The notes below the pieces were generated by a model, which searched no databases, had not been told where the DNA came from, and saw only the letters and a program-made list of their open reading frames with translations. The translations under genes were made by a program, and so were the position numbers. This document shows positions 357 to 36,660 of a stretch of 42,274 nt of DNA, in pieces. The first letter of the stretch is position 1. Each line of letters starts with the position of its first letter. Source of the DNA: a virus; IMG/VR virus record IMGVR_UViG_3300003323_000383, positions 3,738-46,011 of that record; one strand, given 5' to 3'.

Positions 357-1118
357 TTAGCGCTCCAGAGCCGCGAGCTGGTAGTCCAGGACCACCGTCT
401 TGCTCGTCGCCGTGCCGGCCAGGATACCGAAGGTCGGCGACATGTTGACCGCCGGGTACGAGGTCGGGATCACGCGTGCCACCGGGCCCAGCGCGATGGT
501 GTTGTAGTCCACCGTAGCTTGACCGACCAGCTGGTTGCCCGCGAAGGCAACGATCGACGGCACGCCCGCGTTGCCTTGCGGCGCGTAGACGAAGCCGAAG
601 TTCACTTGCTGTGCGTTGACCAGGGTGTAGGGTACTACCGCCGAGCCAGTGACCACGCCACCGACCACCGACTGGAGGGTCATCTGCGTCGCCGCTGAGG
701 CCTTGGTGAAGTAAATCCCGTCGGGTAGGCCGGTGAAGGGCGTTGCCGAGATCGCCATCAGCCCGAAGCGGAAGCCCGGGTTGACCGTATCCGCCGCCGT
801 GAAGCTGCACAGATACGCCAGCTTCTGTGTGGCCTGCACGGCATAGCTCGCCACCGGGCGCTGGATCGACGTGAAGTCGGTTGCAGCCGGCGTCGTCACG
901 GAGGTCGTGAGCGTAATCAAGCCGCCTGCACCAGCAGTAGCTGCGGCAGTACCGGCCGCTGCGCCCGCTTGTGAAAGGGTGTAATCGCCCGCACGATAGG
1001 GCAGGAAGTCATCCTGGTCTACCGCGCAGAAGAAGGGATCGGGAAAGCCCATAAGACCAAGAGGCTGAAACTCTTGATCCTGTGTGAATCCCGCTACGAA
1101 ACGTGCCGGGGCCGCCAT
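357..1118 (-). CDS. Putative virion structural protein, 253 aa
   Basis: I chose ATG at 1118 because GGAG lies six bases upstream; a longer frame to 1214 would run back through the hairpin that follows the capsid gene. The protein is rich in Ala, Thr, Gly and Val with few charges, typical of beta-rich phage coat or decoration proteins. There is an Ala/Gly run near residues 50-70 and a C-terminal half resembling a small jelly-roll (FGFVYAPQGNAGVPSIVAF). It sits directly downstream of the major capsid gene and its terminator, so it is expressed late at a reduced level relative to capsid. The exact family is not recognised. Confidence 0.7.
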   Translation of the reverse strand: MAAPARFVAGFTQDQEFQPLGLMGFPDPFFCAVDQDDFLPYRAGDYTLSQAGAAAGTAAATAGAGGLITLTTSVTTPAATDFTSIQRPVASYAVQATQKLAYLCSFTAADTVNPGFRFGLMAISATPFTGLPDGIYFTKASAATQMTLQSVVGGVVTGSAVVPYTLVNAQQVNFGFVYAPQGNAGVPSIVAFAGNQLVGQATVDYNTIALGPVARVIPTSYPAVNMSPTFGILAGTATSKTVVLDYQLAALER

Positions 1119-1136
1119 GACAATCTCCAATTGGTC

Positions 1137-1176
1137 AAAAAGTACCGGGATCGGCATGGAGCCCAATCCCGGTATA
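1137..1176 (-). terminator. Hairpin terminator after the major capsid gene
   Basis: Read on the minus strand, TACCGGGAT pairs perfectly with ATCCCGGTA (1166-1174 with 1143-1151). One wobble and two GC pairs extend the stem, closing an eight-base loop, and CTTTTT follows. It lies between the end of the capsid gene (1218) and the next start (1118). This is a textbook intrinsic terminator, probably leaky since structural genes continue downstream, giving high capsid message relative to later genes. Confidence 0.75.
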
Positions 1177-1217
1177 AAAACCGCCAGCGCTCGATCAACG
1201 CTAGCGATCCCCAACCA

Positions 1218-2138
1218 TTACGGTCCGTTCGAACCGAAGATGCCACGCGGATCGGTCGCGCCGACCGAGAACCGCATATACGTCGCGGCCTTGGCGTTCT
1301 TCGTATCGAAGTCGTTGTCCTGATCGAACTCGGGCCGATCGCGCCAGAACATCGTCATGCCGTTAGGGCAATTCGTGCGGATGAACCACGCGTGCGGAGA
1401 CGTGAAGTAGTGGTTCATCTTGATCCCTTTCGGGAACGCATTGGTCGCCTTGAGAACGTTGATGTTGTTCGAGGTCGTGTTGGACTGGAGCACCGACTTC
1501 ATGATGCGGTTGGCGTTGTACCAGTCCTGGCGGCTGACGTGCAGCGACTCGGCCATGATCGAGATCAGGAGGCCGCGATCGTTCTGCGTACCCATGATCT
1601 GGATGTTCAGGTCCTCGAACGCCGCTTCCGAGATGTCGACCGACGGGAACAGCGCGTTGCTGTAGGTGCCGCCCGTGACGTTCACGTGCGCCGTGGAGAT
1701 GAGCGGTTGCCCATCCGGCGTCGTGTAGTACGTGGTGCTGAACGCGTTGTTGTAGAGGAACGCGGCCACGTTCTCGATCGTCTGATTGATGGAGAACGCG
1801 TTGGCGCGTGCCCGATCCATCGAGACTTTCTCGTACAGGTTGTCGCGCAGCTCTTCGTACGTGACCTGATAACCCAGCGCATAGGCGATATGCGCGTAGG
1901 TGGTTACCCAGCCCTGCACTTCCGAGTCGTATTGAACCGGAGCACCCTGCGCCTTGACGGGCGCGAGGCCGAACGACGCGACCTGCACGTCTTGTTCGTA
2001 CGCTTGGTCCGAATCCTCGATGTTATAGAGGTCCGGATACTCCATCGCGTGCTCGTTGTAGATCTGCCCCCATACTGCGTGTACCCCAGGCCACAATAGC
2101 TTGGGATGGGAGCCTGTGTTGATAACTCCACCGGCCAT
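1218..2138 (-). CDS. Major capsid protein
   Basis: The 306-residue product has the hallmarks of phage major head proteins of the HK97 fold. These include the segment DGQPLISTAHVNVTGG near residues 141-156 and a C-terminal FSVGATDPRGIFGSNG, which matches the usual 'D-x-R-G-x-x-G-S' ending of this group. The length fits a capsid without a fused scaffold, in line with the separate scaffold gene upstream. Start ATG at 2138 follows AGGAG with a CATATC spacer. The neighbours, scaffold and head-associated genes upstream and a strong terminator immediately downstream, support the assignment. Confidence 0.9.
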   Translation of the reverse strand: MAGGVINTGSHPKLLWPGVHAVWGQIYNEHAMEYPDLYNIEDSDQAYEQDVQVASFGLAPVKAQGAPVQYDSEVQGWVTTYAHIAYALGYQVTYEELRDNLYEKVSMDRARANAFSINQTIENVAAFLYNNAFSTTYYTTPDGQPLISTAHVNVTGGTYSNALFPSVDISEAAFEDLNIQIMGTQNDRGLLISIMAESLHVSRQDWYNANRIMKSVLQSNTTSNNINVLKATNAFPKGIKMNHYFTSPHAWFIRTNCPNGMTMFWRDRPEFDQDNDFDTKNAKAATYMRFSVGATDPRGIFGSNGP

Positions 2139-2153
2139 GATATGCTCCTGAGG

Positions 2154-2750
2154 TTAGACGCCTGCCGTGTTCTTGGCAAGCTGATGCACGTTGATAAGGC
2201 ACAGCCACTTCGCTGCGGTCCCGTACGCGTTGTCGATGGTGCGCACGAGGCCCATCAGGCGAACCTGAAGGGTCGCGCCGGTACCAGTACCGACATCGTT
2301 GAAGGTCCACTGCGACACGTAGCCGTTGTTCACGCCGGACAGCAGGTTGGCGTTCTGGCCCACGTTGGCCGAGGTGAGCGCCGGGCCGGCACCGCCTTCC
2401 TGGATCTGGAAGAGGATGTTCGGATCGTCGGCGACCATCGCGTAGTACGGATTGGTCTTCGCTGCCGGGACAATGTTGCTATCCAGGTTCGCCGGGTTGG
2501 CCATCAAAGTCTCATACCGGCCGAACCCGACGATTGCGCCCAAGATGGGGTTGGTGGCACCCGCCGTAGCCAGGGTGATGCTGGGCACCCCGTTCACGTC
2601 CGCATCGCCAGCCATGACGACCGGGTCGCCGATGGCGTAAGCGTTACCGTCCGCTTGCGGGATGAAGTAGCACCGCGCCTGGCCGGACCAGGGCGAGCCG
2701 TTGAGGTATTGCACCGGCGATAGCCCCGCCGGCTTGCTGACGTTTGCCAT
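2154..2750 (-). CDS. Capsid-associated protein, possibly head decoration, 198 aa
   Basis: ATG at 2750 follows GGAG with a six-base spacer. The N-terminus (MANVSKPAGLSPVQYLNG) and the following GNAYAIGDPVVMAGDAD segment match a protein I recall lying next to the capsid gene in many podo- and siphoviruses; that family is annotated only as structural or hypothetical. It is beta-rich, Asn/Gly-rich and lacks membrane segments. Its position directly upstream of the capsid gene suggests a decoration or cement role, which is inference. Confidence 0.75.
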   Translation of the reverse strand: MANVSKPAGLSPVQYLNGSPWSGQARCYFIPQADGNAYAIGDPVVMAGDADVNGVPSITLATAGATNPILGAIVGFGRYETLMANPANLDSNIVPAAKTNPYYAMVADDPNILFQIQEGGAGPALTSANVGQNANLLSGVNNGYVSQWTFNDVGTGTGATLQVRLMGLVRTIDNAYGTAAKWLCLINVHQLAKNTAGV

Positions 2751-2785
2751 TTCAAGCTCCAGTTATGGGCACCCCTCGCGCCGCG

Positions 2786-3304
2786 CTAGCGCTTGCGCTT
2801 TGGAGTAAACAGATTGGTGACGTTTTGGCGCTGCCCCTCGGGGATGTAGCGCTGACTCTGGTCGTAGGGGTTGGCTTCGCCAAGCATCGCACCGCGTGCG
2901 TCCCCTCGCAGGGCCCTAGCTACTGACTCGTTGCGCTCAAAGAGCGCATCCTGATCCTGCTCCCAGAACTCCTGTGGGAGCTTCATCAGGAACAAACGTT
3001 CCTCGCTGTCGCCCCCGACGGCGGCTGGTACGCTGATCCGGGAGCCAAGATCGCTGCTTCCGTTAGCGCTCGCGTCGCCGGCGAGGTCGAAGTTATTGAT
3101 GTCCACCCCATCCTCCTCCGTTACGAAGGTGTAACCGGCCCGGAGGGCGCGAGGTACACGGGAGGTCAGAAACCAATGCAGGTGATACCCAGGAATATCC
3201 GCTACTTCTAGGTGGCGGACTGGCACCGACATAGGAACGCGGTCCTTACCGGGATTTTTGGTCTCGGGAAGGTTCGACGGGTTCTTCGGATCTGCGGGAT
3301 TCAT
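2786..3304 (-). CDS. Conserved phage head-region protein, 172 aa
   Basis: Two adjacent ATGs (3307 and 3304) overlap the TGA of the scaffold gene. I prefer the second because it sits seven bases from GGAG; the first sits four. The N-terminus is a Pro/Asn/Lys-rich linker, then a folded part starting near VPVRHLEVADIPGYHLHWF, and a C-terminal acidic/Gln segment ending in a Lys/Arg tail (TPKRKR). Its place between scaffold and capsid-associated genes suggests a role in head assembly. The basic tail could contact DNA or scaffold, but no function is established. Confidence 0.7.
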   Translation of the reverse strand: MNPADPKNPSNLPETKNPGKDRVPMSVPVRHLEVADIPGYHLHWFLTSRVPRALRAGYTFVTEEDGVDINNFDLAGDASANGSSDLGSRISVPAAVGGDSEERLFLMKLPQEFWEQDQDALFERNESVARALRGDARGAMLGEANPYDQSQRYIPEGQRQNVTNLFTPKRKR

Positions 3305-4143
3305 CATTGCTCTCCTTTGTAGTACAGGTCGGCATAGTACTTCTGCCACGAGGCCTGATCCTTGAATGCCCGGCCCTCGCCCACCAGTTTCTTACCCTGC
3401 TTGATGCAGGCCTCTTTTGCCTCGGGCGGGAGGCTGTCGTACGATTTCGAGCCTCCGCCGCCCCCACCACCGCCGTCGCCGGTAGGCCGACCACCGCCCA
3501 CCTTCCCGGACGAACCGCCCGGAACTTGCCCTTCGGTCATGACCTTCACCACATGGTCGAAGAACGCCCGGCCCTGGAGGTGATCGTTGCGCTCGTCGCT
3601 CCGAAGCATGTGAGCGATGCCCTCAGCCTTCGCGGTCTTGCGCTGGTCCACCCCATACCAAGGGTTGTCGTTCATCCACGCCTGGAAGTCGGGGTCGATC
3701 TGCGGCTTCTGCTGGGTGGGCTGCTGCTGCGTTTGCTGCACAGGCTTTGTGACAGGCGTCGGCGTGTCCTTTAGACCGGCGATCTCGGTCTGGATTTCCA
3801 CCTCGCGAAGCGTGTCGCCCGAATCCCGAGCCTCCTGGAGTTCGGTGGCCAGTCGGCGCTTCTGCGCCTCCAGCTGCGTCTTCAGGTTCTGCTCGTGGAA
3901 GCTTTGCAGCTCGGAAATGGATTCCTGCGAGGCCTTGAACATGCCTGCAAGATGTTGATTCTCGCCGCGAAGGCGTTGCACCTCCTGTTCGAGCCGGCGG
4001 TTTTGCGACCGGACGATCGGGAGGACCTGCTCACCTTTCGCAATGAAGGTCTCCGCGTCGACCCACTTCTCCGGGCCAGAACGGAACTCCTCCAGCGGAA
4101 CCCAGCCCATATCCCGGGCGCGTTGCTCGACATCGTTACTCAT
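3304..4143 (-). CDS. Head scaffolding protein
   Basis: The 279-residue product begins with a motif common to phage scaffolds (ARDMGWVPLEEFRSGPEKWV, about residues 9-28). It continues into a long heptad-rich coiled coil (about 45-130) and a Gln/Pro-rich linker (PVQQTQQQPTQQ). A run of nine Gly near residues 225-235 precedes a basic, helical C-terminus (about 240-279) of the sort that binds capsid subunits. It lies upstream of the capsid genes in the usual order. ATG at 4143 follows AAGGAG with six bases between, and that SD overlaps the end of the upstream gene. Confidence 0.85.
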   Translation of the reverse strand: MSNDVEQRARDMGWVPLEEFRSGPEKWVDAETFIAKGEQVLPIVRSQNRRLEQEVQRLRGENQHLAGMFKASQESISELQSFHEQNLKTQLEAQKRRLATELQEARDSGDTLREVEIQTEIAGLKDTPTPVTKPVQQTQQQPTQQKPQIDPDFQAWMNDNPWYGVDQRKTAKAEGIAHMLRSDERNDHLQGRAFFDHVVKVMTEGQVPGGSSGKVGGGRPTGDGGGGGGGGSKSYDSLPPEAKEACIKQGKKLVGEGRAFKDQASWQKYYADLYYKGEQ

Positions 4144-20228: not shown

Positions 20229-20594
20229 ATGAAAGCAATCCTTGCAGCAGTGGCCCTCCTCGCAGCGCCCCTCGCCCACGCCGATGGTATTTGGGCGACC
20301 GCCCAGCTGTCCAACAACTCCCTCGTCCAGCTGTCGGATATATCGGTCGCGGACAAGGACCACCCCGGCTGTATCGGCGCCATGATGACCTTCCCGAATC
20401 CGAAGGAAGAGCCCATCTACGGCTGCTGGTCTAAGCCGGCGAAGGGCAAGATTCTCGTGACGTGGTTCTTCGACGGGGGCTCTACCCCGTGGGAGGAGAT
20501 GTACACCACCAAGCAATTCCACCTCACGCCGTACGGTGAGGGCATGTTCTCGATGCTGCTGAAGAAGCGTGCCGCGACCACGCCCTCCATGTGA
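20229..20594 (+). CDS. Exported small protein with Sec signal peptide, 121 aa
   Basis: ATG at 20229 is just after the previous stop with GGAG seven bases upstream. Residues 1-18 (MKAILAAVALLAAPLAHA) are a textbook Sec signal ending in A-H-A. The mature part is about 103 residues with three aromatic-rich strands (DHPGCIGAMMTFPNP, then YGCWSKPAKGKILVTWFF) and a Cys pair that could form a disulphide. A periplasmic location is likely. Possible roles are superinfection exclusion or envelope modification. The stop lies just before a hairpin. Confidence 0.7.
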   Translation: MKAILAAVALLAAPLAHADGIWATAQLSNNSLVQLSDISVADKDHPGCIGAMMTFPNPKEEPIYGCWSKPAKGKILVTWFFDGGSTPWEEMYTTKQFHLTPYGEGMFSMLLKKRAATTPSM

Positions 20595-21353: not shown

Positions 21354-21689
21354 ATGACCATTCGTAACTCCACCGGCGCGCTTCGCCGGTCACGCAAGAT
21401 GCCTCCCGAGGACACGCTCGGTTGGAGGCTGAAGAACGCCCGCATCGAACGCGGGATTAACATTGACTTCCTCGCGAGCTATATCGGCACCGATCCTTCC
21501 CGGATCACGGCGATAGAGAATCGGGGAGAGTATCCCACCCTCCGCACCGCGATCGCGCTTGCTAAGGTCCTCGACATCTCCATCGACTACCTCGTGGGGT
21601 TGGAGGACATTAACGGTAAGCGGACCGCCGAGGCGGATGACATTTCTATCCCACGGAGGCTTAGCGATGCTGCGGTTTCTAACCCTTGA
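21354..21689 (+). CDS. XRE-family helix-turn-helix regulator, 111 aa
   Basis: Residues about 22-82 are an XRE/Cro-type HTH: LGWRLKNARIERGIN, then DFLASYIGTDPSRITAIENRG (shown in part), and PTLRTAIALAKVLDISIDYL, which also matches the usual domain end. The N-terminus is basic and short, and there is no protease or dimerisation domain as in CI, so a small repressor or control protein is likely. The SD upstream is poor (GGTAAATC). No lysogeny gene accompanies it here, so a role in early or late timing is more likely than lysogeny. Confidence 0.75.
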   Translation: MTIRNSTGALRRSRKMPPEDTLGWRLKNARIERGINIDFLASYIGTDPSRITAIENRGEYPTLRTAIALAKVLDISIDYLVGLEDINGKRTAEADDISIPRRLSDAAVSNP

Positions 21690-22971
21690 GCAAGTCACGG
21701 TGGCGCCCAATCGCCAACGCGCCTTCATCGACCCGGTCAAGTTGCAGGAGCTGGCAAACAGCATCCGCGACAACCACCTCATCCACGCCCCCGTGGTCGA
21801 CGGCTCCAACACCCTCATCGTCGGCGAGCGGAGGTATCGGGCCATCCAACTCCTACATGACATGGGCGAGGAGTTCTACTACGGGCAGAAGAAGGTCCCG
21901 CCCGGCTTCGTTCCGGTGGTCGACATCGGAGACCTCACGGACATCCAGCGCTATGAAATCGAACTCGAGGAGAATATTCGTCGCGAAGGGCTCACATGGC
22001 AAGAGGAAGTGCAGGCCACAGCTCGTCTGGCGGAGCTTAAGACCTCCATCGCCCTCGCGGCGGGCCTCACGCCCCCGTCTAACGCACAGCTCGAAGGTGA
22101 GATCCGGGGTCTCTCCAAGGCCTCTGATGGCGGGACGGTACGCGAGCATCTCGACCTTGCGCGCAACATGGACAAGCCTGAAGTTGCTAAGGCCAAAACA
22201 CAGAAGGAAGCTACTAAGGCTCTCAAGCGAATTGTGCAGGCTGAACAGCATGCGAAGCTTGCGGCCGCAGTCGGCGCCACGGCATCAGCCTCCCGCCACA
22301 TTCTCCACCGGGCGAACTGCCTCGAGTTCATGCCCGGGTACCAGTCGGAGTCCTTCGACTGCATCTGCACTGATCCCCCGTACGGTATGGGAGCGGATCA
22401 GTTTGGAGACTCAGGAGGCTCCCTTGGCCGCACTCACGGCTATGCGGATGACGTTGATGTCTTGGATCAAATCCTGTCGGAAGCGCCCCGGGAGTTCTGG
22501 CGGGTGCTGAAGCCCCAAGGCCACGTGTACGTGTTCTGCGACTTCCGGTTCTTCGGAGATTGGAAATCCGCACTGGAGTGTCAGGGCTTCAGGGTCTTCC
22601 GCACGCCCCTCATTTGGCACAAGCCCACCGGCCTCGCCCGCGCCCCGTGGCCCGAGATCGGCCCGCAGCGCCGCTACGAATGCATTGTCTACGCCATCAA
22701 GGGCAACAAGCCCGTGACCGGAATGTACTCCGACGTGATCAGTGTGGAGTGGGACGAAGCGACCGGGCACGCCGCGCAGAAGCCTGTGGCCCTGTACACC
22801 AACCTCCTCCGCCGGTCCTGCCTGCCCGGCGAGACCGTCCTCGACCCCTTCTGTGGCAGTGGCCCGATCTTCCCGGCCGCTGAAGAACTCAAGCTCACCG
22901 CCCACGGTATTGAGATGGATGAAGTGAGCTACGGCATCGCCGCACAGCGCCTCGCAGCGCTCAAGGCGTAA
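21667..22971 (+). CDS. ParB-like nuclease/DNA methyltransferase fusion
   Basis: ATG at 21667 follows CACGGAGGCTTAGC and overlaps the HTH gene end. Residues 1-110 are a ParB N-terminal domain (LIVGERRYRAI near 50-60, ELEENIRREGL near 99-109). Residues about 205-434 are a DNA methyltransferase with catalytic DPPYGM (236-241), a target-recognition part, and SAM-binding VLDPFCGSGP (391-400). DPPY before FCGSG gives beta-class order. It probably methylates adenine N6 or cytosine N4 in DNA for protection against host restriction. Such ParB-methyltransferase fusions are known in phages; the target site is unknown. Confidence 0.85.
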   Translation: MLRFLTLEQVTVAPNRQRAFIDPVKLQELANSIRDNHLIHAPVVDGSNTLIVGERRYRAIQLLHDMGEEFYYGQKKVPPGFVPVVDIGDLTDIQRYEIELEENIRREGLTWQEEVQATARLAELKTSIALAAGLTPPSNAQLEGEIRGLSKASDGGTVREHLDLARNMDKPEVAKAKTQKEATKALKRIVQAEQHAKLAAAVGATASASRHILHRANCLEFMPGYQSESFDCICTDPPYGMGADQFGDSGGSLGRTHGYADDVDVLDQILSEAPREFWRVLKPQGHVYVFCDFRFFGDWKSALECQGFRVFRTPLIWHKPTGLARAPWPEIGPQRRYECIVYAIKGNKPVTGMYSDVISVEWDEATGHAAQKPVALYTNLLRRSCLPGETVLDPFCGSGPIFPAAEELKLTAHGIEMDEVSYGIAAQRLAALKA

Positions 22972-23004: not shown

Positions 23005-24483
23005 ATGAAACGCATCATTGCAGCATTGACCCTCTCCCTCGCGGCAGTCGCCTCGTGGGCAGCGTGTGTCAACTCACCGTCCGACTCGGGCGGCTCCCTC
23101 CCTCTAACCACCGGGAAGCTTGTATGGCACTCCTACACCTCCTACGGCGATGGGTCATCGCAGTTGTTTGTGCGAGACATTGCCGCCGGGAGTACGACAA
23201 ACGTCTCTTCTTCCTGGGCCTGTGCCTCGGGCTGCACCGTAAAAGACCCAATGAACGCGGTGTGGAGCGCGGATGGCAACTGGCTCCTCTTCATGGGGGT
23301 GGCAAACAACGCGTGGAACCTCTTCGCCGTCTCCGCATCCGGCGGCTCACCAATCAACCTCACCGGCTCTACCGGCACGACCCGGAACGAGGACCCGAAG
23401 TTCTCCGCCGACGGGACGAAGGTGGTGTGGAAGCAGGGGCAGGCGGGGACGTGGCGGGTGATGCAAGCACCCTGGTCGGTGACCGGGGGCACGCCGTCGC
23501 TTGGTACTACGACCACGCTCATAACCGGCTCTACCGAGAACTCGATGCCGTTCCTCGACTCCGCCGGCACCACCCTGTATTACTCCGCCGGCAGCTCAAG
23601 CCCCTTCACCTTGTACAGCAAGGCTCTCCCCTCCGGCACACCCTCGTCGATTTCGAGCAGCGGCTACTACCCCGTGGTTCGCTGGTCAGACAACACTGTC
23701 TTCTGGGCCGACGACACCACGCAGGGAGCGAACGATCAGGTGGCGTACAAGGCTAGCGGCGGGTCGACCACCTACCCCTCCATCAACGACTGCAACGGGA
23801 ACAACTCGGACCCGTGGCCAGTGGGGAGCACGAACTATGTCTTCTTCTCAAGTACTACTCCGGGTGGTTATCAACTTTACCTTGGTGACCTTTCTAACGG
23901 CAATCGCTATAATCTGTCTGCGTGGTACTCTGACACAGCGAAAGCTCACCTGGGCTCTTCGTATTATAGCGGCACTGGTGGCGGTGGTGGCGGTTCAGGT
24001 AGTTCTACTACCGTAAACCTTGCCCGCGTGACCGGCCAGACCACGAACCCCTCGGCGACCGCCTCGTCCACCACGTCCCCGATGGTGGCAAGTCGTGCGA
24101 TCGACGGCAACACCGCCGACACCAACGCCTCGCGGTGGGACAGCACCGAGCCGATGCCGAACCCCTCGTACCTAATCGTCGACCTCGGCTCGCAGTGCGC
24201 GGTGGGCTACACGGGGGTCTGCACCATCACCGGTATCGACCTGTACAAGGACTCCTACCCCACCCACAACGAGATCGATATCTCGTCGGACGGGACCAAC
24301 TGGACCTCGATCTGGTCGATCACCAACGACACGAGCTACACCCACCGGGCGATCAACCAGACCGCACTCGGCGGGGCGAAGTACGGCCGCTACATCCGGG
24401 CCTACGGAACGGCGACGGCGCCTTACGGCATGTCGTTGCCGGAGATCCAAATCTGGGGCTGCACCGCTCAGACCTGTAACTAA
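23005..24483 (+). CDS. Secreted beta-propeller plus F5/8 type C (discoidin-like) protein
   Basis: ATG at 23005 has GGAG six bases upstream. Residues 1-19 (MKRIIAALTLSLAAVASWA) form a Sec signal peptide. Residues about 30-315 repeat a TolB/WD40-like blade pattern (SADGNWLLFMG, FSADGTKVVWK, DNTVFWADD), implying a beta-propeller. A Gly-rich linker (322-334) then joins a C-terminal F5/8C-like lectin domain (338-492) with VASRAIDGNT, DLYKDSYPTHNEIDIS and SLPEIQIWG. It should reach the periplasm or outside and bind a glycan or envelope component. Base composition around 23830-24020 is visibly AT-richer than on either side, hinting at a mosaic join. Confidence 0.75.
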   Translation: MKRIIAALTLSLAAVASWAACVNSPSDSGGSLPLTTGKLVWHSYTSYGDGSSQLFVRDIAAGSTTNVSSSWACASGCTVKDPMNAVWSADGNWLLFMGVANNAWNLFAVSASGGSPINLTGSTGTTRNEDPKFSADGTKVVWKQGQAGTWRVMQAPWSVTGGTPSLGTTTTLITGSTENSMPFLDSAGTTLYYSAGSSSPFTLYSKALPSGTPSSISSSGYYPVVRWSDNTVFWADDTTQGANDQVAYKASGGSTTYPSINDCNGNNSDPWPVGSTNYVFFSSTTPGGYQLYLGDLSNGNRYNLSAWYSDTAKAHLGSSYYSGTGGGGGGSGSSTTVNLARVTGQTTNPSATASSTTSPMVASRAIDGNTADTNASRWDSTEPMPNPSYLIVDLGSQCAVGYTGVCTITGIDLYKDSYPTHNEIDISSDGTNWTSIWSITNDTSYTHRAINQTALGGAKYGRYIRAYGTATAPYGMSLPEIQIWGCTAQTCN

Positions 24484-24490
24484 ACCTCAC

Positions 24491-24506
24491 GCCCCCGAGA
24501 GGGGGC
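24491..24506 (+). other. Intercistronic hairpin with GAGA loop
   Basis: GCCCCC (24491-24496) pairs with GGGGGC (24501-24506) around a GAGA tetraloop of the stable GNRA type. It lies seven bases after the propeller gene's stop and right before GGAG-CTATC-ATG of the MazG-like gene. No T tract. Confidence 0.55.
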
Positions 24507-24518
24507 ATTGGAGCTATC

Positions 24519-24950
24519 ATGGCAGAAATCACTAAACCCTCTGAACTCGATCCCGTCTCCATCGAAGTGATGATGACGGTGCTTAACCGCTTCGCCCGCA
24601 TGGCGTACGGCAACAGCCACGCGAAGGGCTTTTGGGACGAGTACGAGGAGACGCTCGCCGTCATCGGCCTGCAACTGAACGAGGCTCACCAAGCCAAGTA
24701 CACCACCGACGTGAAGCTCTCCAAGATCGACCTGATCCATAGCGAACTTGGCGAGATGACCGAAGGCGTACGAAAGCCCGGCCCGGATCAGCACTGCCCC
24801 GAGTTCACGCAGGAAGAGATCGAGGCCGCTGACGCCTTCATCCGCCTCATGGACTATGTAGGCAAGTTCGACCTCCGCTTCGGGCCTGCCGTTATGGCCA
24901 AGATGGAGTACAACGCCTCGCGCCCCTACAAGCACGGGAAGGCAGCGTGA
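24519..24950 (+). CDS. MazG-like NTP pyrophosphohydrolase
   Basis: ATG at 24519 has the recurrent GGAG-CTATC-ATG start. The 143-residue all-helical protein has DLIHSELGEMTEGVRK (about residues 71-86) with an ExxE metal site, then EEIEAADAFIRLMDYVGKF (about 99-117) with ExxxxD-type residues. That is the metal-binding pattern of MazG/dUTPase-type all-alpha NTP pyrophosphohydrolases. They hydrolyse NTPs or dNTPs to monophosphates and may cleanse the pool or lower host alarmone. Neighbours are DnaQ and polymerase genes, consistent with nucleotide metabolism. Confidence 0.8.
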   Translation: MAEITKPSELDPVSIEVMMTVLNRFARMAYGNSHAKGFWDEYEETLAVIGLQLNEAHQAKYTTDVKLSKIDLIHSELGEMTEGVRKPGPDQHCPEFTQEEIEAADAFIRLMDYVGKFDLRFGPAVMAKMEYNASRPYKHGKAA

Positions 24951-25797: not shown

Positions 25798-25937
25798 AGC
25801 CCCATATTTGGTTTAGGTACGGTACTTGGTGGTGCGCTACGAAATACTGCTATCGCGGCGGCGGCACAACACCCATGCGTGCCTACCTCGATCACATGAG
25901 GCGTCTATCGGAGTTACTCCATGACAGGCATTATTGA
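25794..25937 (+). CDS. Small hypothetical protein, 47 aa
   Basis: ATG at 25794 overlaps the DnaQ-like stop. It begins KPHIWFRYGTWWCATKYCYR, a pattern also seen in the 21177 gene (KPHIHYQQGYWRC), so the two are probable paralogues. The C-terminus is helical (AYLDHMRRLSELLHD). Two Cys and many aromatics; function unknown. Confidence 0.55.
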   Translation: MKPHIWFRYGTWWCATKYCYRGGGTTPMRAYLDHMRRLSELLHDRHY

Positions 25938-26190
25938 CCAAAACTGGTTCGTGCGGCTTTGGCCCGCAGTCGAAGAACACTTCAACAAGATCTATTCGGA
26001 GCCCCAAGATGTCAGTACGAAAAGGAAACGGGAACCCAAACGCTCGCGTCATGGTAGTCGGCGAGGCATGGGGCGCGGAGGAAGAGCGGACTGGACAGCC
26101 CTTTATGGGTGCTTCCGGCCAAGAGCTAAACCGCATGCTCCAAGCCGCCGGCATCGGGCGAAGCGAGATCTGGACTACCAACCTCGTTAA
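25921..26190 (+). CDS. Hypothetical protein overlapping the polymerase start, 89 aa
   Basis: ATG at 25921 follows GGAG with seven bases and overlaps the preceding gene. Residues 1-30 (MTGIIDQNWFVRLWPAVEEH) look genuine, but no stop occurs before the polymerase ATG at 26009. The last 60 residues run out of frame through its 5' end and are Arg/Pro-rich. The real product may thus be about 30 conserved residues plus a non-specific basic tail. It could be a leader that couples polymerase translation. Confidence 0.5.
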   Translation: MTGIIDQNWFVRLWPAVEEHFNKIYSEPQDVSTKRKREPKRSRHGSRRGMGRGGRADWTALYGCFRPRAKPHAPSRRHRAKRDLDYQPR

Positions 26191-28510
26191 CGCCCGCCCG
26201 GCCGGCAACGACTTCGGGGAGTGGGTGGCCCTGAAGAAGAAGGACATCACTCCGGACCACGTTCCCTTCCGGGACAAGATGGTCCGGCCGATTGTGAGGC
26301 TCGGCTACGAGTCCCTCATGCAGGATATCGACCTTGTCAAACCTAACGTTATTGTGCCCGTTGGCAACTACGCAATGTGGGCCCTCACAGGAGCATTCGG
26401 CATCCTCAAATGGCGGGGGAGCATGCTACGTATGTCGCAGGATTCTAGCTCACCGAAGGTCATACCTACAGTTCACCCTGCCGCTGTGCTGCGTGAGTGG
26501 AAGTACCGCTCCATCGTCATCAACGACCTCCGACGAGTCGCAAACGAGCAGCACTCCCTAGAGTGGGCTACCCCACCCCGCGACTACCGCTTCATCATCC
26601 GCCCCTCGTACCAAAAGGTGATGCTCACGCTCGCCGAACTGAAGCGTCGCATGGACGCCGGAGAATCGCTATGGTTGGAACTGGACCTCGAAACGCGTGC
26701 CGGGCACATCGCTTGCTGTGGCATCTCATGGAGTCATGTGGATGCACTTGTCGTCCCCTTGATGTGTATCGAGAACGAGAACGGGTATTGGGGGCAGGAA
26801 GAAGAAGCGACTATTGTACATGCCTTACGCCGAGTGTTGACTCACGCGCGTGCGAAAGTGCGGTTGCAGAATGGCTTGTACGACGCACAGTATACCTGGA
26901 GGCACTGGTTGTTCGTTCCTCGAGTGGCGCAGGACACTATGCTCTCTCAACACACCTGCTTTGTGGCGCTGCCGAAGAGCTTGGCCTTTCAAAGCTCGAT
27001 GTACTCTCCGCACTACGTCTACTGGAAAGACGATGGGAAAACATGGGGGGAGACTCACAGCGAGGACCAGCTATGGTCCTACAACGGGATGGACTGCGTG
27101 AGGACCCGCGAGTGTGGGGAGGCTTTGATGGAGTCGGTGACCTCATTGGGGCTGCAAGAAGTGGAAGCCTTTCAGCAGAGGCTGTTCTGGCCAGTGCTGC
27201 GCGCTATGCAGATCGGGGTCCGGGTGATCCCGGAGAAGCGGGCGCAGATCATCCAGGAGCTGCAAGACGCGATTGCGGACCGGGAGGAGTGGATGGCGAA
27301 GGTCCTCGGGCACTCCCTCAACATCGGGAGCCATGTCCAGATGAAGAAGCTGTTCTACGAGGACCTGAAGCAAATTCCTGTCATGACGCGGGCTACGAAG
27401 AAAAAGCCCTCGACCATGACCTGCAACGACGAGGCCCTCCAGACCATCGCGAAGCGAGAACCGTTGCTGAAGGGTCTGTGCAACACGATCGCGGACATGC
27501 GGACCCTTGGGATATGGTTAGGCACCTTCGCCCAAGCCAAGGTGGACTTCGACGGCCGGATGAGGTGCTCGTTCAACATCGCGGGCAACGAGACGAAGGA
27601 GCAGGGGGAGGGAGAGAAGGCAGTGAAGGCGGCCCCGTACACATACCGCCTGTCCAGCTCCGAAAACGCCTTCGGCTCCGGGCTCAACATGCAAACGATC
27701 CCCAGCGAGAAGTCCAAATCCGCCGGGAAAGCAATCGCCCGGGGAAGCAAGATGCCGATCCCGAACCTCCGCTCGATGTTCGGCCCGGACCCGGGGATGA
27801 CATTCTTTGACGCGGACTTGGACCGCGCTGACCTTCAAGTCGTGGTGTGGGAGGCGAACGATGCAGACCTCAAAGCTGCTCTGCGAATGGGAGCTGACAT
27901 TCACTTGCTTAACGCATACATCCTCGTGGGCAAAGAGCCTCCACCTATGGATGAGCTGGTTGAGGGGCATCCCAAATACAAGGATCATAGGGCACCGTAT
28001 AAAACCCAGCGAGAGTTTGCCAAGGTTTTCTGTCACGCTACAAACTACGGAGGATCTCCGAAGACTATTGCTGGACACACAGGGAGAACTATCGCGGAAG
28101 TTGATCGAGCGCAACGGATCTGGTTTGGCGCTCACCCGGGTATACTTCGCTGGCACGAGCGAGTAGCGCAGCAGATCAACCGCTACCACTTCATCGAGAA
28201 CCCGTTCGGCTACCGGTGGTATATCTTTGACCGGCTGGATAACGCGTTCACGGAAGGTCTGGCGTGGGTTCCCCAATCCACGGTAGGGTGTGTCATCAAC
28301 CGCGTGTGGGACCGGTGGTACACGGAACTCCCCTCCGTGCAGGTGTTGCTGCAGGTGCATGATAGTTTGGCGGGGCAGTTCCCGACGAGGGAGCGCCACG
28401 TGCTTGTGCCCAAGATGTTAGAGCTAGGGCGAATCGTTGTACCGTATGAAGATCCCCTAATCATCCCCCTTGGCATGGGAACGTCGGACGTGTCGTGGGG
28501 CGACTGCTAG
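26009..28510 (+). CDS. UDG-like domain fused to family A DNA polymerase
   Basis: ATG at 26009 follows GGAG with CCCCAAG spacing. Residues 14-165 are a uracil-DNA-glycosylase superfamily domain: VVGEAWGAEEERTGQPFMG, then NLVNARPAGND and VHPAAVLREW. The Fe-S cysteines of family 4 enzymes are absent. A 3'-5' exonuclease follows (LELDLET 223-229, NGLYDAQY 288-295, YNGMDC 358-363). The polymerase domain has motif A FFDADLDRADLQ (599-610), motif B TQREFAKVF...NYGG (666-682) and motif C VHDS (783-786). The exo and polymerase acidic residues are present, so replicative activity with proofreading is expected. SPO1 polymerase, as I recall, also has such an N-terminal domain. Confidence 0.85.
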   Translation: MSVRKGNGNPNARVMVVGEAWGAEEERTGQPFMGASGQELNRMLQAAGIGRSEIWTTNLVNARPAGNDFGEWVALKKKDITPDHVPFRDKMVRPIVRLGYESLMQDIDLVKPNVIVPVGNYAMWALTGAFGILKWRGSMLRMSQDSSSPKVIPTVHPAAVLREWKYRSIVINDLRRVANEQHSLEWATPPRDYRFIIRPSYQKVMLTLAELKRRMDAGESLWLELDLETRAGHIACCGISWSHVDALVVPLMCIENENGYWGQEEEATIVHALRRVLTHARAKVRLQNGLYDAQYTWRHWLFVPRVAQDTMLSQHTCFVALPKSLAFQSSMYSPHYVYWKDDGKTWGETHSEDQLWSYNGMDCVRTRECGEALMESVTSLGLQEVEAFQQRLFWPVLRAMQIGVRVIPEKRAQIIQELQDAIADREEWMAKVLGHSLNIGSHVQMKKLFYEDLKQIPVMTRATKKKPSTMTCNDEALQTIAKREPLLKGLCNTIADMRTLGIWLGTFAQAKVDFDGRMRCSFNIAGNETKEQGEGEKAVKAAPYTYRLSSSENAFGSGLNMQTIPSEKSKSAGKAIARGSKMPIPNLRSMFGPDPGMTFFDADLDRADLQVVVWEANDADLKAALRMGADIHLLNAYILVGKEPPPMDELVEGHPKYKDHRAPYKTQREFAKVFCHATNYGGSPKTIAGHTGRTIAEVDRAQRIWFGAHPGILRWHERVAQQINRYHFIENPFGYRWYIFDRLDNAFTEGLAWVPQSTVGCVINRVWDRWYTELPSVQVLLQVHDSLAGQFPTRERHVLVPKMLELGRIVVPYEDPLIIPLGMGTSDVSWGDC

Positions 28511-29750: not shown

Positions 29751-30089
29751 ATGCCACACCCTCCAACCGTCCGCCAGCTGATAGTCGAAGGGATGGGGTA
29801 CTGCTGCCCCCATCTCTTCTTCACCCTATTCCCTGAAACGTGGAAGGCCGCCCTTCGCCTCGGCGTCACCCGCCGGGCCATCAAGTATGAGAAGCAAAGA
29901 GCCCGCACGGGATGCGCGGGCTGTGAGGGGTGCATGGCACCGAGGCTTAAGGCTTTACAGCACGCAGTGCAGCAACGACCGCAGAAAGATCATGATCTGT
30001 CAACGACACGCCCATCGGCACATCCTCCGGAAGCACCGATAAAAGTGATCCGTCGACAAGCCACAGATGTTCGTGAGGAGGATGACTAG
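29751..30089 (+). CDS. HTH-like Cys-rich small protein, end of early operon, 112 aa
   Basis: ATG at 29751 is two bases after the previous stop, with a weak SD, so coupling is likely. Residues about 1-66 are the likely conserved part: VRQLIVEGMGYCCPHLFFTL, RLGVTRRAIKYEKQRA (an HTH-like helix pair), then CAGCEGCM. This resembles a small HTH-type phage protein I recall at such operon ends. The last 45 residues overlap the convergent lipase gene by 143 bases and look like read-through sequence. The frame contains the late-operon terminator hairpin on the opposite strand. Confidence 0.6.
   Translation: MPHPPTVRQLIVEGMGYCCPHLFFTLFPETWKAALRLGVTRRAIKYEKQRARTGCAGCEGCMAPRLKALQHAVQQRPQKDHDLSTTRPSAHPPEAPIKVIRRQATDVREEDD
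29891..29922 (-). terminator. Late-operon terminator
   Basis: On the minus strand AGCCCGC (29922-29916) pairs with GCGGGCT (29906-29900) around a nine-base loop, followed by CTTTGCTTC. It lies 25 bases after the lipase stop at 29947, at the end of the leftward late operon. It sits inside the plus-strand gene 29751-30089, so it acts on only one strand. Confidence 0.6.
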
Positions 30090-30639
30090 CGCCCCATGTG
30101 GTCACGAATGGGTAGTGCCAGAATACGTCGCGCTCGTGCACCACAGATACGGTGTCGGCGCGATCGTATTGCTTCCAGAACTCCGCATTCCCTGCCTTGG
30201 GGGACTCGAAGGCGAAGATGCCGGCGAGCCGGGACGCGGGGCAGAACAGCGGGGAGTAATACGCCCGCCATCCCCCCAACGAGTGCCCCTCCACCCACAC
30301 CGCCGCACTGCTCGGCAGCCCTTTGAACACCCACTGCCATAGCGCCGGCAGTCCGCAATACGCCCCACGCGCCACCTTCGCCCCGCCCCCCACGTCCTTA
30401 TCATCTACATCAAGGTCGTGGAGGAGGTCCTCCACCTGGTCATCCGCGAACCGGGTGCCAGAGATGGAGAGGTAGGCCGCGCCTTCGCGCATGGTAAGGG
30501 CCGCCTGCACGGCCCCCACCTTGTACTGGCCTACCCACTCCATGCCCTGATCCTCCATCGAGGCCCGACACGCGGCCGGGTCCATGATGTAGGCGGCCTC
30601 ACACCGTAAGGCCGACTCGAGGATGAGTTGCAGGTTCAC
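29947..30639 (-). CDS. Class 3 lipase-like hydrolase in lysis cassette
   Basis: The start is GTG at 30639, overlapping the lipoprotein stop (GTGA). The protein shows the lipase nucleophile elbow VEGHSLGGW (S120), Asp at RDVFWHYP (D171) and His at DHDLSAVV (H216), a plausible Ser-Asp-His triad in an alpha/beta-hydrolase of 230 residues. An upstream motif SISGTRFADDQVEDLLHDLD also fits the Lipase_3 family. No signal peptide is seen. Located at the end of the lysis gene cluster, it may attack membrane lipid or envelope esters during release, like LysB in mycobacteriophages, but in a Gram-negative context this is inference. Confidence 0.8.
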   Translation of the reverse strand: MNLQLILESALRCEAAYIMDPAACRASMEDQGMEWVGQYKVGAVQAALTMREGAAYLSISGTRFADDQVEDLLHDLDVDDKDVGGGAKVARGAYCGLPALWQWVFKGLPSSAAVWVEGHSLGGWRAYYSPLFCPASRLAGIFAFESPKAGNAEFWKQYDRADTVSVVHERDVFWHYPFVTTWGASHPPHEHLWLVDGSLLSVLPEDVPMGVSLTDHDLSAVVAALRAVKP

Positions 30640-34995: not shown

Positions 34996-35381
34996 ACCAG
35001 TTTCGATTGGTCCAAGATGAAGGTGTAGTCCAGTTCGTCAATGTCGGGGGCGAATCCTAGGTCATCCCAACCCGGCGCCGCGAGATCACAGATGGCACAG
35101 TCCGCCACCCCTACGTCCGCAATCCCATTCCGCCCGAGCCACGAGCACATGGGCGGGAAGAAGTCCTCCTGCGGCTGCTGCCATGGAGGATCGATAACGT
35201 CGGGTACCGACCGGACGAAGTCCTGGGGCTGCCGCTGCTCCCAATGCTCCGGACACACCCAATACCCCTGCCAGTGCTTGATGAGGGTGGAGGCCTTCCG
35301 CTTCCGCCCGCACTGCCAGCACGCCGCATTCCAGTCGCCGAGCTCTAGATAATCCGCCCGGCCGCGAAGAGGCCTAGCCAT
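34992..35381 (-). CDS. Zinc-ribbon protein in tail operon, 129 aa
   Basis: ATG at 35381 overlaps the ATP-grasp stop and has GGAG seven bases upstream; a longer frame to 35405 lacks support. Residues about 20-50 have CWQCGRK and YWVCPEHWE, a Cys-Cys-Cys-His zinc site of a type seen in phage tail-region proteins. A second set of Cys and an aliphatic motif lie near the end (GIADVGVADCAIC), followed by an acidic tail. It is coupled to the ATP-grasp and fibre genes, so it may be their substrate or partner. Confidence 0.65.
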   Translation of the reverse strand: MARPLRGRADYLELGDWNAACWQCGRKRKASTLIKHWQGYWVCPEHWEQRQPQDFVRSVPDVIDPPWQQPQEDFFPPMCSWLGRNGIADVGVADCAICDLAAPGWDDLGFAPDIDELDYTFILDQSKLV

Positions 35382-36660
35382 GTTTCCACTCCGTTGCGTA
35401 GCCAAACCCCTTCAGGGTCTGGAGTTTGGTTTTAACCTTCCGGCCGATGTCGTCCCGGTAGAGAGCTGAGTTGGGGATATGGACTTTCTTGACTCGGGTG
35501 TAGGCGTCCTCGACGGCTTCGGCCACCGTTGCCGCCCGACCGAGGACTGTGATGGGGGTCGTGGAGGCCGTGACCGTCATCGGTTTGCCCATCACCTCCC
35601 CCAGCATCACCCCATCGTGGGCCACCCAGCCCTCTTGCTTCTCCAACCCAAAGATGGGGTAGCCCGTTGCTTCGTCCCGGGGCCGACGGTCGTAGGGGAA
35701 GTCTGGCATAGCCACCGCCACCCCCACCGCGACATCGTACAGCGGCTTGAACTTGTTCTCCCCCCGGACCGCCGCAAGCATCCATTCCGCCTTGTCCGGG
35801 TGGAGGCACTGCTGGATCGCCCACAACGGGTAGCCGAAGCGGCACGTGAACTCCAGCGGCCACGGCCGCCCCCTCTTATCCACGATCACCGCCACGTCGA
35901 TGTAGCCCACATACCCCTGCCGCAGCAGCTCGGGTTCAAGGGGCTTGAGCACTTCCGCCGCTAGCTTGGAGTCGTTCACATACCGCATGACCGTCCCCAT
36001 CTCGCCCGTGTTCGGACCCGAGTCGCCTGCCATCAGCTTCTTGTGCTCGAAGTTCTCGAGCCACGGCCCCACCCAGCCCTGCCGCCCCATGAAGCCACCC
36101 ACTGCGAATTCCGTGCCCTCGATGAACTCTTGGAGCACGATATCCGGCACGGCGTTGCGGTCCCTCTGCCACCGGTCGAGCATGTATAGGAGATCCTCCT
36201 GCCCCTTCGGCACATACGAGAGCGCCTTGGCCACATCGCCATTCGGCTTCACCACAAACCGCTTGTCCGACGCCGAGGCGAACGCCGCCGCATCGCGGAA
36301 GTTCTTGAACGGGTGCGACTCTGCCACTGCGATGCCGTGCTCTGCAAAGACATCCTGGCCCCTCTGCCGGTTCAACTCCCACGTCGTGACTTCCTTCGTC
36401 GCGCCAAAGATGGGGTACCCACGCTTGCGATATCCCTCCAGCGCGTGCATCCCGTGGCTGTTGTCGGAGATCACGATCAGGTCGGCCCACCGCATAGAGG
36501 GCTCCCACTCCCGCATCCGGTGAACCAGCCCCCGCCCGATGTTGTTCGTGTCTCCCTTCAGGATCAAGGGGGCATGGAGCCGAACCTCATGGCCCGCGCG
36601 CTGCGCCTCCACACAGAAGTGCAGGTTCAACGCGGTGTGATCGATGACGAGAATCTTCAT
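35374..36660 (-). CDS. PurD-like ATP-grasp enzyme
   Basis: The 428-residue product is similar in size and layout to GAR synthetase (PurD): an N-terminal nucleotide-type domain (MKILVIDHTALNLHF), FVVKPNGDVAKA (135-146), QEFIEGTEFAVGG (177-189), NTGEMGTV (217-224), and a C-terminal LEFTCRFGYP (269-278). PurD has EFNxRFGDPE; here the Mg-ligand Asn is Thr and the Asp is Tyr, so the substrate may differ. ATGA overlap with the ejection-protein gene at 36657-36660. It lies in the virion operon, not in a nucleotide-metabolism set. It could ligate an amino acid or peptide to a virion protein or to DNA; this is inference. Confidence 0.75.
   Translation of the reverse strand: MKILVIDHTALNLHFCVEAQRAGHEVRLHAPLILKGDTNNIGRGLVHRMREWEPSMRWADLIVISDNSHGMHALEGYRKRGYPIFGATKEVTTWELNRQRGQDVFAEHGIAVAESHPFKNFRDAAAFASASDKRFVVKPNGDVAKALSYVPKGQEDLLYMLDRWQRDRNAVPDIVLQEFIEGTEFAVGGFMGRQGWVGPWLENFEHKKLMAGDSGPNTGEMGTVMRYVNDSKLAAEVLKPLEPELLRQGYVGYIDVAVIVDKRGRPWPLEFTCRFGYPLWAIQQCLHPDKAEWMLAAVRGENKFKPLYDVAVGVAVAMPDFPYDRRPRDEATGYPIFGLEKQEGWVAHDGVMLGEVMGKPMTVTASTTPITVLGRAATVAEAVEDAYTRVKKVHIPNSALYRDDIGRKVKTKLQTLKGFGYATEWKHG

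Follow-up and report, generated by a model that had tools for sequence, protein, structure and literature searches.

The Bacillus phage phiNIT1 carries PghP and LevP, host-derived proteins that are not part of the virion and are directed against extracellular polymers, and LevP-like enzymes combine a propeller with a beta-sandwich (PMC6966330). In Pseudomonas aeruginosa, PA3619 has been named as a gene upstream of mutS (PMC10579334), matching the place of the P. aeruginosa homologue identified here, which sits between mutS and cinA-recA; we found no functional study of PA3619. Here we describe a viral gene whose predicted product joins a signal peptide, a TolB-type propeller and an F5/8 type C (F5/8C) domain. 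It lies in a window (the whole stretch of DNA analysed) of 42,274 nucleotides, positions 3,738 to 46,011 of IMG/VR record IMGVR_UViG_3300003323_000383. The gene, its parts and its surroundings have the following window coordinates.

21559-22971, + strand: left neighbour, ParB domain with N4/N6 DNA methyltransferase (Pfam ParB and N6_N4_Mtase)
23005-24483, + strand: whole gene, exported-type propeller-F5/8C protein of 492 aa (open reading frame, translation and homologues)
23005-23064, + strand: predicted signal peptide, about residues 1-19/20 (sequence and hydrophobicity; similar N-termini in homologues)
23107-23970, + strand: six-bladed TolB-type propeller, residues 35-322 (AlphaFold2, Foldseek and VIA-align; PDB TolB chains also matched by profile)
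23383-23406, + strand: RNEDPKFS motif, residues 127-134 (invariant in 40/40 aligned family members; inner-strand enrichment)
23836-24015, + strand: low-GC3 patch, codons 278-337, last blade and linker (60-codon GC3 and homologue comparison)
23971-24021, + strand: Gly/Ser-rich linker, residues 323-339 (translation and low pLDDT)
24022-24480, + strand: F5/8C (discoidin/CBM32-like) domain, residues 340-492 (Pfam; Foldseek on a weak model)
24491-24506, + strand: GC hairpin without a T tract in the gap before the next gene (z -2.1; not called as a terminator)
24519-24950, + strand: right neighbour, MazG-like by eye and conserved in relatives (no Pfam match)

The frame, which starts with ATG, is intact across its 492 codons, and the phage copy retains every residue that is invariant in the family. 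Its N-terminus, MKRIIAALTLSLAAVASWA/ACVN (slash, predicted cleavage), has a basic n-region, a hydrophobic core whose best 10-residue Kyte-Doolittle mean is 2.4, and a cleavage site of S-W-A or A-x-A type; most homologues in the propeller family also begin with signal-peptide-like N-termini. These features bear out the signal peptide proposed in a first-pass annotation made from the letters alone, and from them we infer Sec export of the phage product. Inspection of the translation found no lipobox, as the WAAC preceding C21 does not qualify.

AlphaFold2 modelled residues 31-322 as six blades with pLDDT mostly above 90, and the best PDB matches of this propeller were TolB structures (VIA-align Z 29.7, 272-274 residues aligned, rmsd 2.9-3.0). 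A profile search likewise matched TolB chains in the PDB (E 1e-11 to 1e-7), and a Pfam PD40 match lay marginally over its cut-off (21.0 versus 20.9), so that the propeller claimed earlier is upheld by a confident model and by structural matches. Across the 40 members in the family alignment (from 80 loci fetched), 28 propeller positions were invariant, RNEDPKFS among them. With inner strands assigned by hand from the DSSP line of the AlphaFold2 model, 17 of these 28 residues fell on the six innermost strands, where 4.1 were expected (p about 2e-9); excluding RNEDPKFS, 10 of 20 did so (p about 2e-5). This concentration points to a putative ligand or catalytic pocket at the central channel of the modelled propeller.

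The linker and discoidin-like C-terminal domain, also anticipated by the first pass, were recovered in the translation and by Pfam, where PF00754 scored above its curated cut-off (44.5 bits versus 28.2, 2e-11, residues 350-472). Although the model of this domain is weak (mean pLDDT 60), its Foldseek matches were factor VIII C2, the DDR2 discoidin domain and CBM32 domains. Among the matches found, the phage F5/8C domain is nearest to that of the Burkholderiaceae two-domain proteins (86 bits, 44%), with other F5/8C domains scoring at most 54 bits; it forms a long branch in a small F5/8C tree.

The change in base composition noted near the linker (about 23830-24020) is real. Third-position GC falls to 0.40, versus 0.80, over the last blade and linker, with the 60-codon minimum at codons 278-337; elsewhere in the window genes tested the minimum was 0.45, 5000 codon shuffles of the gene never reached 0.40, and none of the seven homologues tested shows such a dip. 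Recombination or replacement may have produced the patch. Along the gene, identity to one Paraburkholderia homologue (L052) peaks there at 0.74, but the patch is also where L052 and L007 are most alike (0.87), and conservation could account for the peak. The further proposal, that the gene was assembled from two sources, found partial support only: the domain pair already exists on Burkholderia, Ralstonia and Paraburkholderia chromosomes, and the dip, covering both last blade and linker, marks no single domain as foreign. With the pair established and widespread in Burkholderiaceae, assembly inside the phage from two unrelated sources is needless. On the other side of this question, the propellers that branch closest to that of the phage, L051 and L052, come without an F5/8C domain, and the C-terminal part may have been captured separately.

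Full-length relatives are found on the chromosomes of Burkholderia, Ralstonia and Paraburkholderia and are about 41-49% identical to the phage protein. Propeller-only relatives occur in P. aeruginosa (PA3619), Lonsdalea, Bacteroidota and Ruminococcus; L052 carries a Ser/Gly/Thr tail after its propeller. In the tree, the phage propeller groups within Pseudomonadota with L052 and L051 (support 98/97). Given the full-length matches in these three genera and the position of the propeller within Pseudomonadota, the phage gene most likely derives from a Burkholderiaceae-like bacterium. Only 2 of 399 evenly drawn Burkholderiales genomes held a close relative, most other matches being weak and TolB-like. 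The Bacteroidota and Ruminococcus copies lie far from the phage branch, at 26-34% identity. In Bacteroidota the propeller follows a short, often lipoprotein-like N-terminus, and in Ruminococcus it precedes a dockerin-like tail, with Dockerin_1 above the Pfam cut-off in three copies (L068, L074 and L086) and similar tails visible in further ones. We found no characterised member of the family, and a literature search for a dockerin/TolB-like family returned no papers.

The settings of these relatives bear on function. In all five Bacteroidota loci the propeller gene comes after a SusC-SusD pair, directly in L063, L064, L065 and L066 and with one gene between in L075 (the SusD of L066 was read by eye from the frame, and the SusC of L075 was recognised by size and place only). 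In three of the five, GH20 or GH116 genes come after it (GH116 in L063; GH20 in L065 and L075), as does SASA in L065. Near the Lonsdalea copy there is a GH13 gene; around the Burkholderia and P. aeruginosa copies, the neighbouring genes give no glycan hint. Together, the SusC-SusD and glycoside hydrolase neighbours, the dockerin-like tails, the F5/8C fusions and the Lonsdalea GH13 gene support, by association and mostly from Bacteroidota and Ruminococcus, a family that works on or at extracellular glycans. Against a glycan reading, F5/8C domains can also bind lipids and proteins, and the ligand of TolB, the nearest fold of known structure, is protein. Separately, a TolB-type propeller after SusC-SusD, as in these five loci, appears to be an undescribed component of polysaccharide utilization loci (PULs).

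In the virus, the gene sits among genes of the replication cluster. Pfam confirmed the methyltransferase named by the first pass on its left, with a ParB domain; on its right, the MazG-like name given to 24519-24950 is unconfirmed, as no Pfam family matched. No promoter or terminator was called in the gaps flanking the gene. Virus relatives, chosen by DNA polymerase, show an order of nuclease, ATPase, SSB-like, ParB-methyltransferase, MazG-like and/or exonuclease genes, polymerase and DUF3987. The propeller gene was absent from the fetched related loci and from 15 whole related virus records (4 partial contigs under 20 kb). In L089 the methyltransferase junction is bare. An HTH gene occupies it in G001, the closest relative; L091 has an HNH-like stretch there, and L099 and L101 have an exonuclease. 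Judged by its gene content, the junction is a variable slot. Because the gene is absent from the 15 related records and the contents of the junction vary, gene order identifies it as a single-gene cargo insertion ('moron') between conserved phage genes. An exported-type propeller with F5/8C does stand within a replication cluster, and the earlier view that it is not a phage replication protein holds.

Several other genes of the window deserve mention. A 121-aa frame at 20229-20594 (+), in the same replication cluster, has a signal-peptide-like start (MKAILAAVALLAAPLAHADG...) and no match in annotated phages or related phage loci. At 25934-28510 (+), a uracil-DNA glycosylase domain is fused N-terminally to a family A DNA polymerase, and the same stretch is matched in relatives. 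A lipase class 3 gene adjoins the replication cluster at 29947-30639 (-), with a 64% identical copy in the closest relative (L088), and a PurD-like (GARS) ATP-grasp gene lies amid structural genes at 35374-36660 (-). No integrase or resolvase families were found in the virus record, which may be a fragment, so lysogeny is unsupported.

We found no other viral copies in IMG/VR or INPHARED. A first single-sequence scan of IMG/VR with the propeller-F5/8C protein gave no matches, and no PHROG matched it up to E 0.1. The single annotated-phage match, 'Pseudomonas phage Y8' (OQ572410), is flanked by cinA-recA on one side and the start of mutS on the other, and an IMG/VR match at a contig edge (L087) is the same P. 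aeruginosa gene; both are chromosomal flank at prophage edges, and a phage family of its own was therefore rejected. The Y8 record itself (L002, OQ572410.1) holds recX, recA, cinA, a PA3619-like gene and the start of mutS at 731-4110, that is, prophage plus host flank, and its PA3619-like frame is without the usual start.

We tentatively favour, at a little short of even, a host-derived exported protein that acts on surface or extracellular glycans during infection; the extracellular-type action suggested by the first pass fits both the signal peptide and the glycan settings of the family. On this reading, the probable use of the protein is in binding or trimming the infected cell's sugar coat. 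A bacterial gene would have been captured as single-gene cargo, set between two replication-cluster genes and probably transcribed with the early genes. Its product would leave the cytoplasm via the Sec pathway; the propeller, with its pocket at the central channel, may then act on or at an extracellular glycan as its putative ligand, while F5/8C would supply a CBM32-like tether. Host surface or extracellular polysaccharide could thereby be bound or processed, whether in the periplasm, on the cell surface or once the cell has lysed, and the presumed benefit would be changed later adsorption, or easier release and spread. It is conceivable but doubtful that the propeller represents an undescribed secreted family, of enzymes acting on glycans or of proteins binding them, with members in Pseudomonadota, Bacteroidota and Bacillota, and that the phage exports it from its replication cluster to remodel the polysaccharide coat of the infected cell.

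Fairly unlikely, in our judgement, is surface exclusion or receptor masking, in which F5/8C would tether the protein to a glycan of the infected cell and the propeller would cover it, so that other phages or the virus's own progeny fail to adsorb. Its export signal, tether-like domain and early-cluster position would suit such a role, and surface-exposed phage exclusion lipoproteins exist, as PMC3952083 describes for Ltp; but the phage protein lacks a lipobox and has no link by sequence with exclusion proteins already known, and none of the bacterial relatives examined is a prophage gene, so that the family was probably not born for exclusion. We also think it unlikely that the gene is a neutral passenger, a recently caught host gene without a selected role in the phage. 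Its presence in one virus only, and its absence from all relatives checked, mean that it could be a passing acquisition, but an intact frame with all invariant residues at about 41-49% identity to full-length relatives speaks for long-term selection, be it in the phage or in a bacterium not yet sampled.

Quite improbable is a periplasmic TolB mimic, whose propeller would bind Pal or another periplasmic protein through a TolB-like channel, disturbing or protecting the envelope and affecting, for example, lysis timing or the entry of Tol-using phages or bacteriocins. TolB is the best solved fold by both structure and profile, export is predicted, and the conserved part is the binding channel; yet there is no TolB_N domain, the TolB family score is 31 versus a cut-off of 343, and relatives stand beside SusC-SusD or carry dockerin-like tails, even in Gram-positive Ruminococcus. 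Ruminococcus is not known to have a Tol-Pal partner. In PMC2821528, the Pal-contacting residues of TolB were not located under a few residue names. A virion protein, such as a glycan-binding tail or capsid decoration, is very improbable: F5/8C and propeller folds are known in phage proteins, and the top BFVD match is a phage protein with F5/8C (TM-score only 0.39), but the signal peptide, the + strand replication cluster (portal, terminase and tail genes lie on the - strand), the lack of any PHROG match and the lack of any F5/8C match in 50,697 phage records count against it, and we accordingly rejected a tail protein.

Here a phage has taken up a whole two-domain host protein, predicted to be exported, in its early cluster, where envelope-acting cargo is seldom sought. 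A conserved, apparently uncharacterised secreted family, with PUL sites, dockerin-like tails in Ruminococcus and a P. aeruginosa member beside mutS, now has a testable handle.

Set against known systems, the Burkholderia and Ralstonia chromosomal proteins run, like the phage protein, from signal peptide through propeller to F5/8C; in the family alignment they are 44-49% identical to it and keep all invariant residues. They differ in being bacterial genes, in a shorter linker, in having no low-GC3 patch in those tested, and in lacking the CAVGYTGVC loop that is present in the phage F5/8C domain. PA3619 shares the signal peptide and propeller (the PA7 copy is 39% identical), but is chromosomal and without F5/8C. 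TolB of the Tol-Pal system resembles the phage protein in its six-bladed PD40-type propeller and periplasmic signal, whereas the phage protein has no TolB_N, has an extra F5/8C domain and scores 31.3 bits against TIGR02800 (cut-off 343), and was rejected as a TolB orthologue. No GH32 was found among its Pfam matches; by this measure it is not a GH32 member, and GH32 propellers are five-bladed whereas that of the phage protein is six-bladed. Phage GH32 has no signal peptide (PMC4595243), unlike the protein described here. LevP (GH32) and PghP of phiNIT1, being host-derived and targeting extracellular polymers, are the nearest functional precedent, and at most an analogous one.
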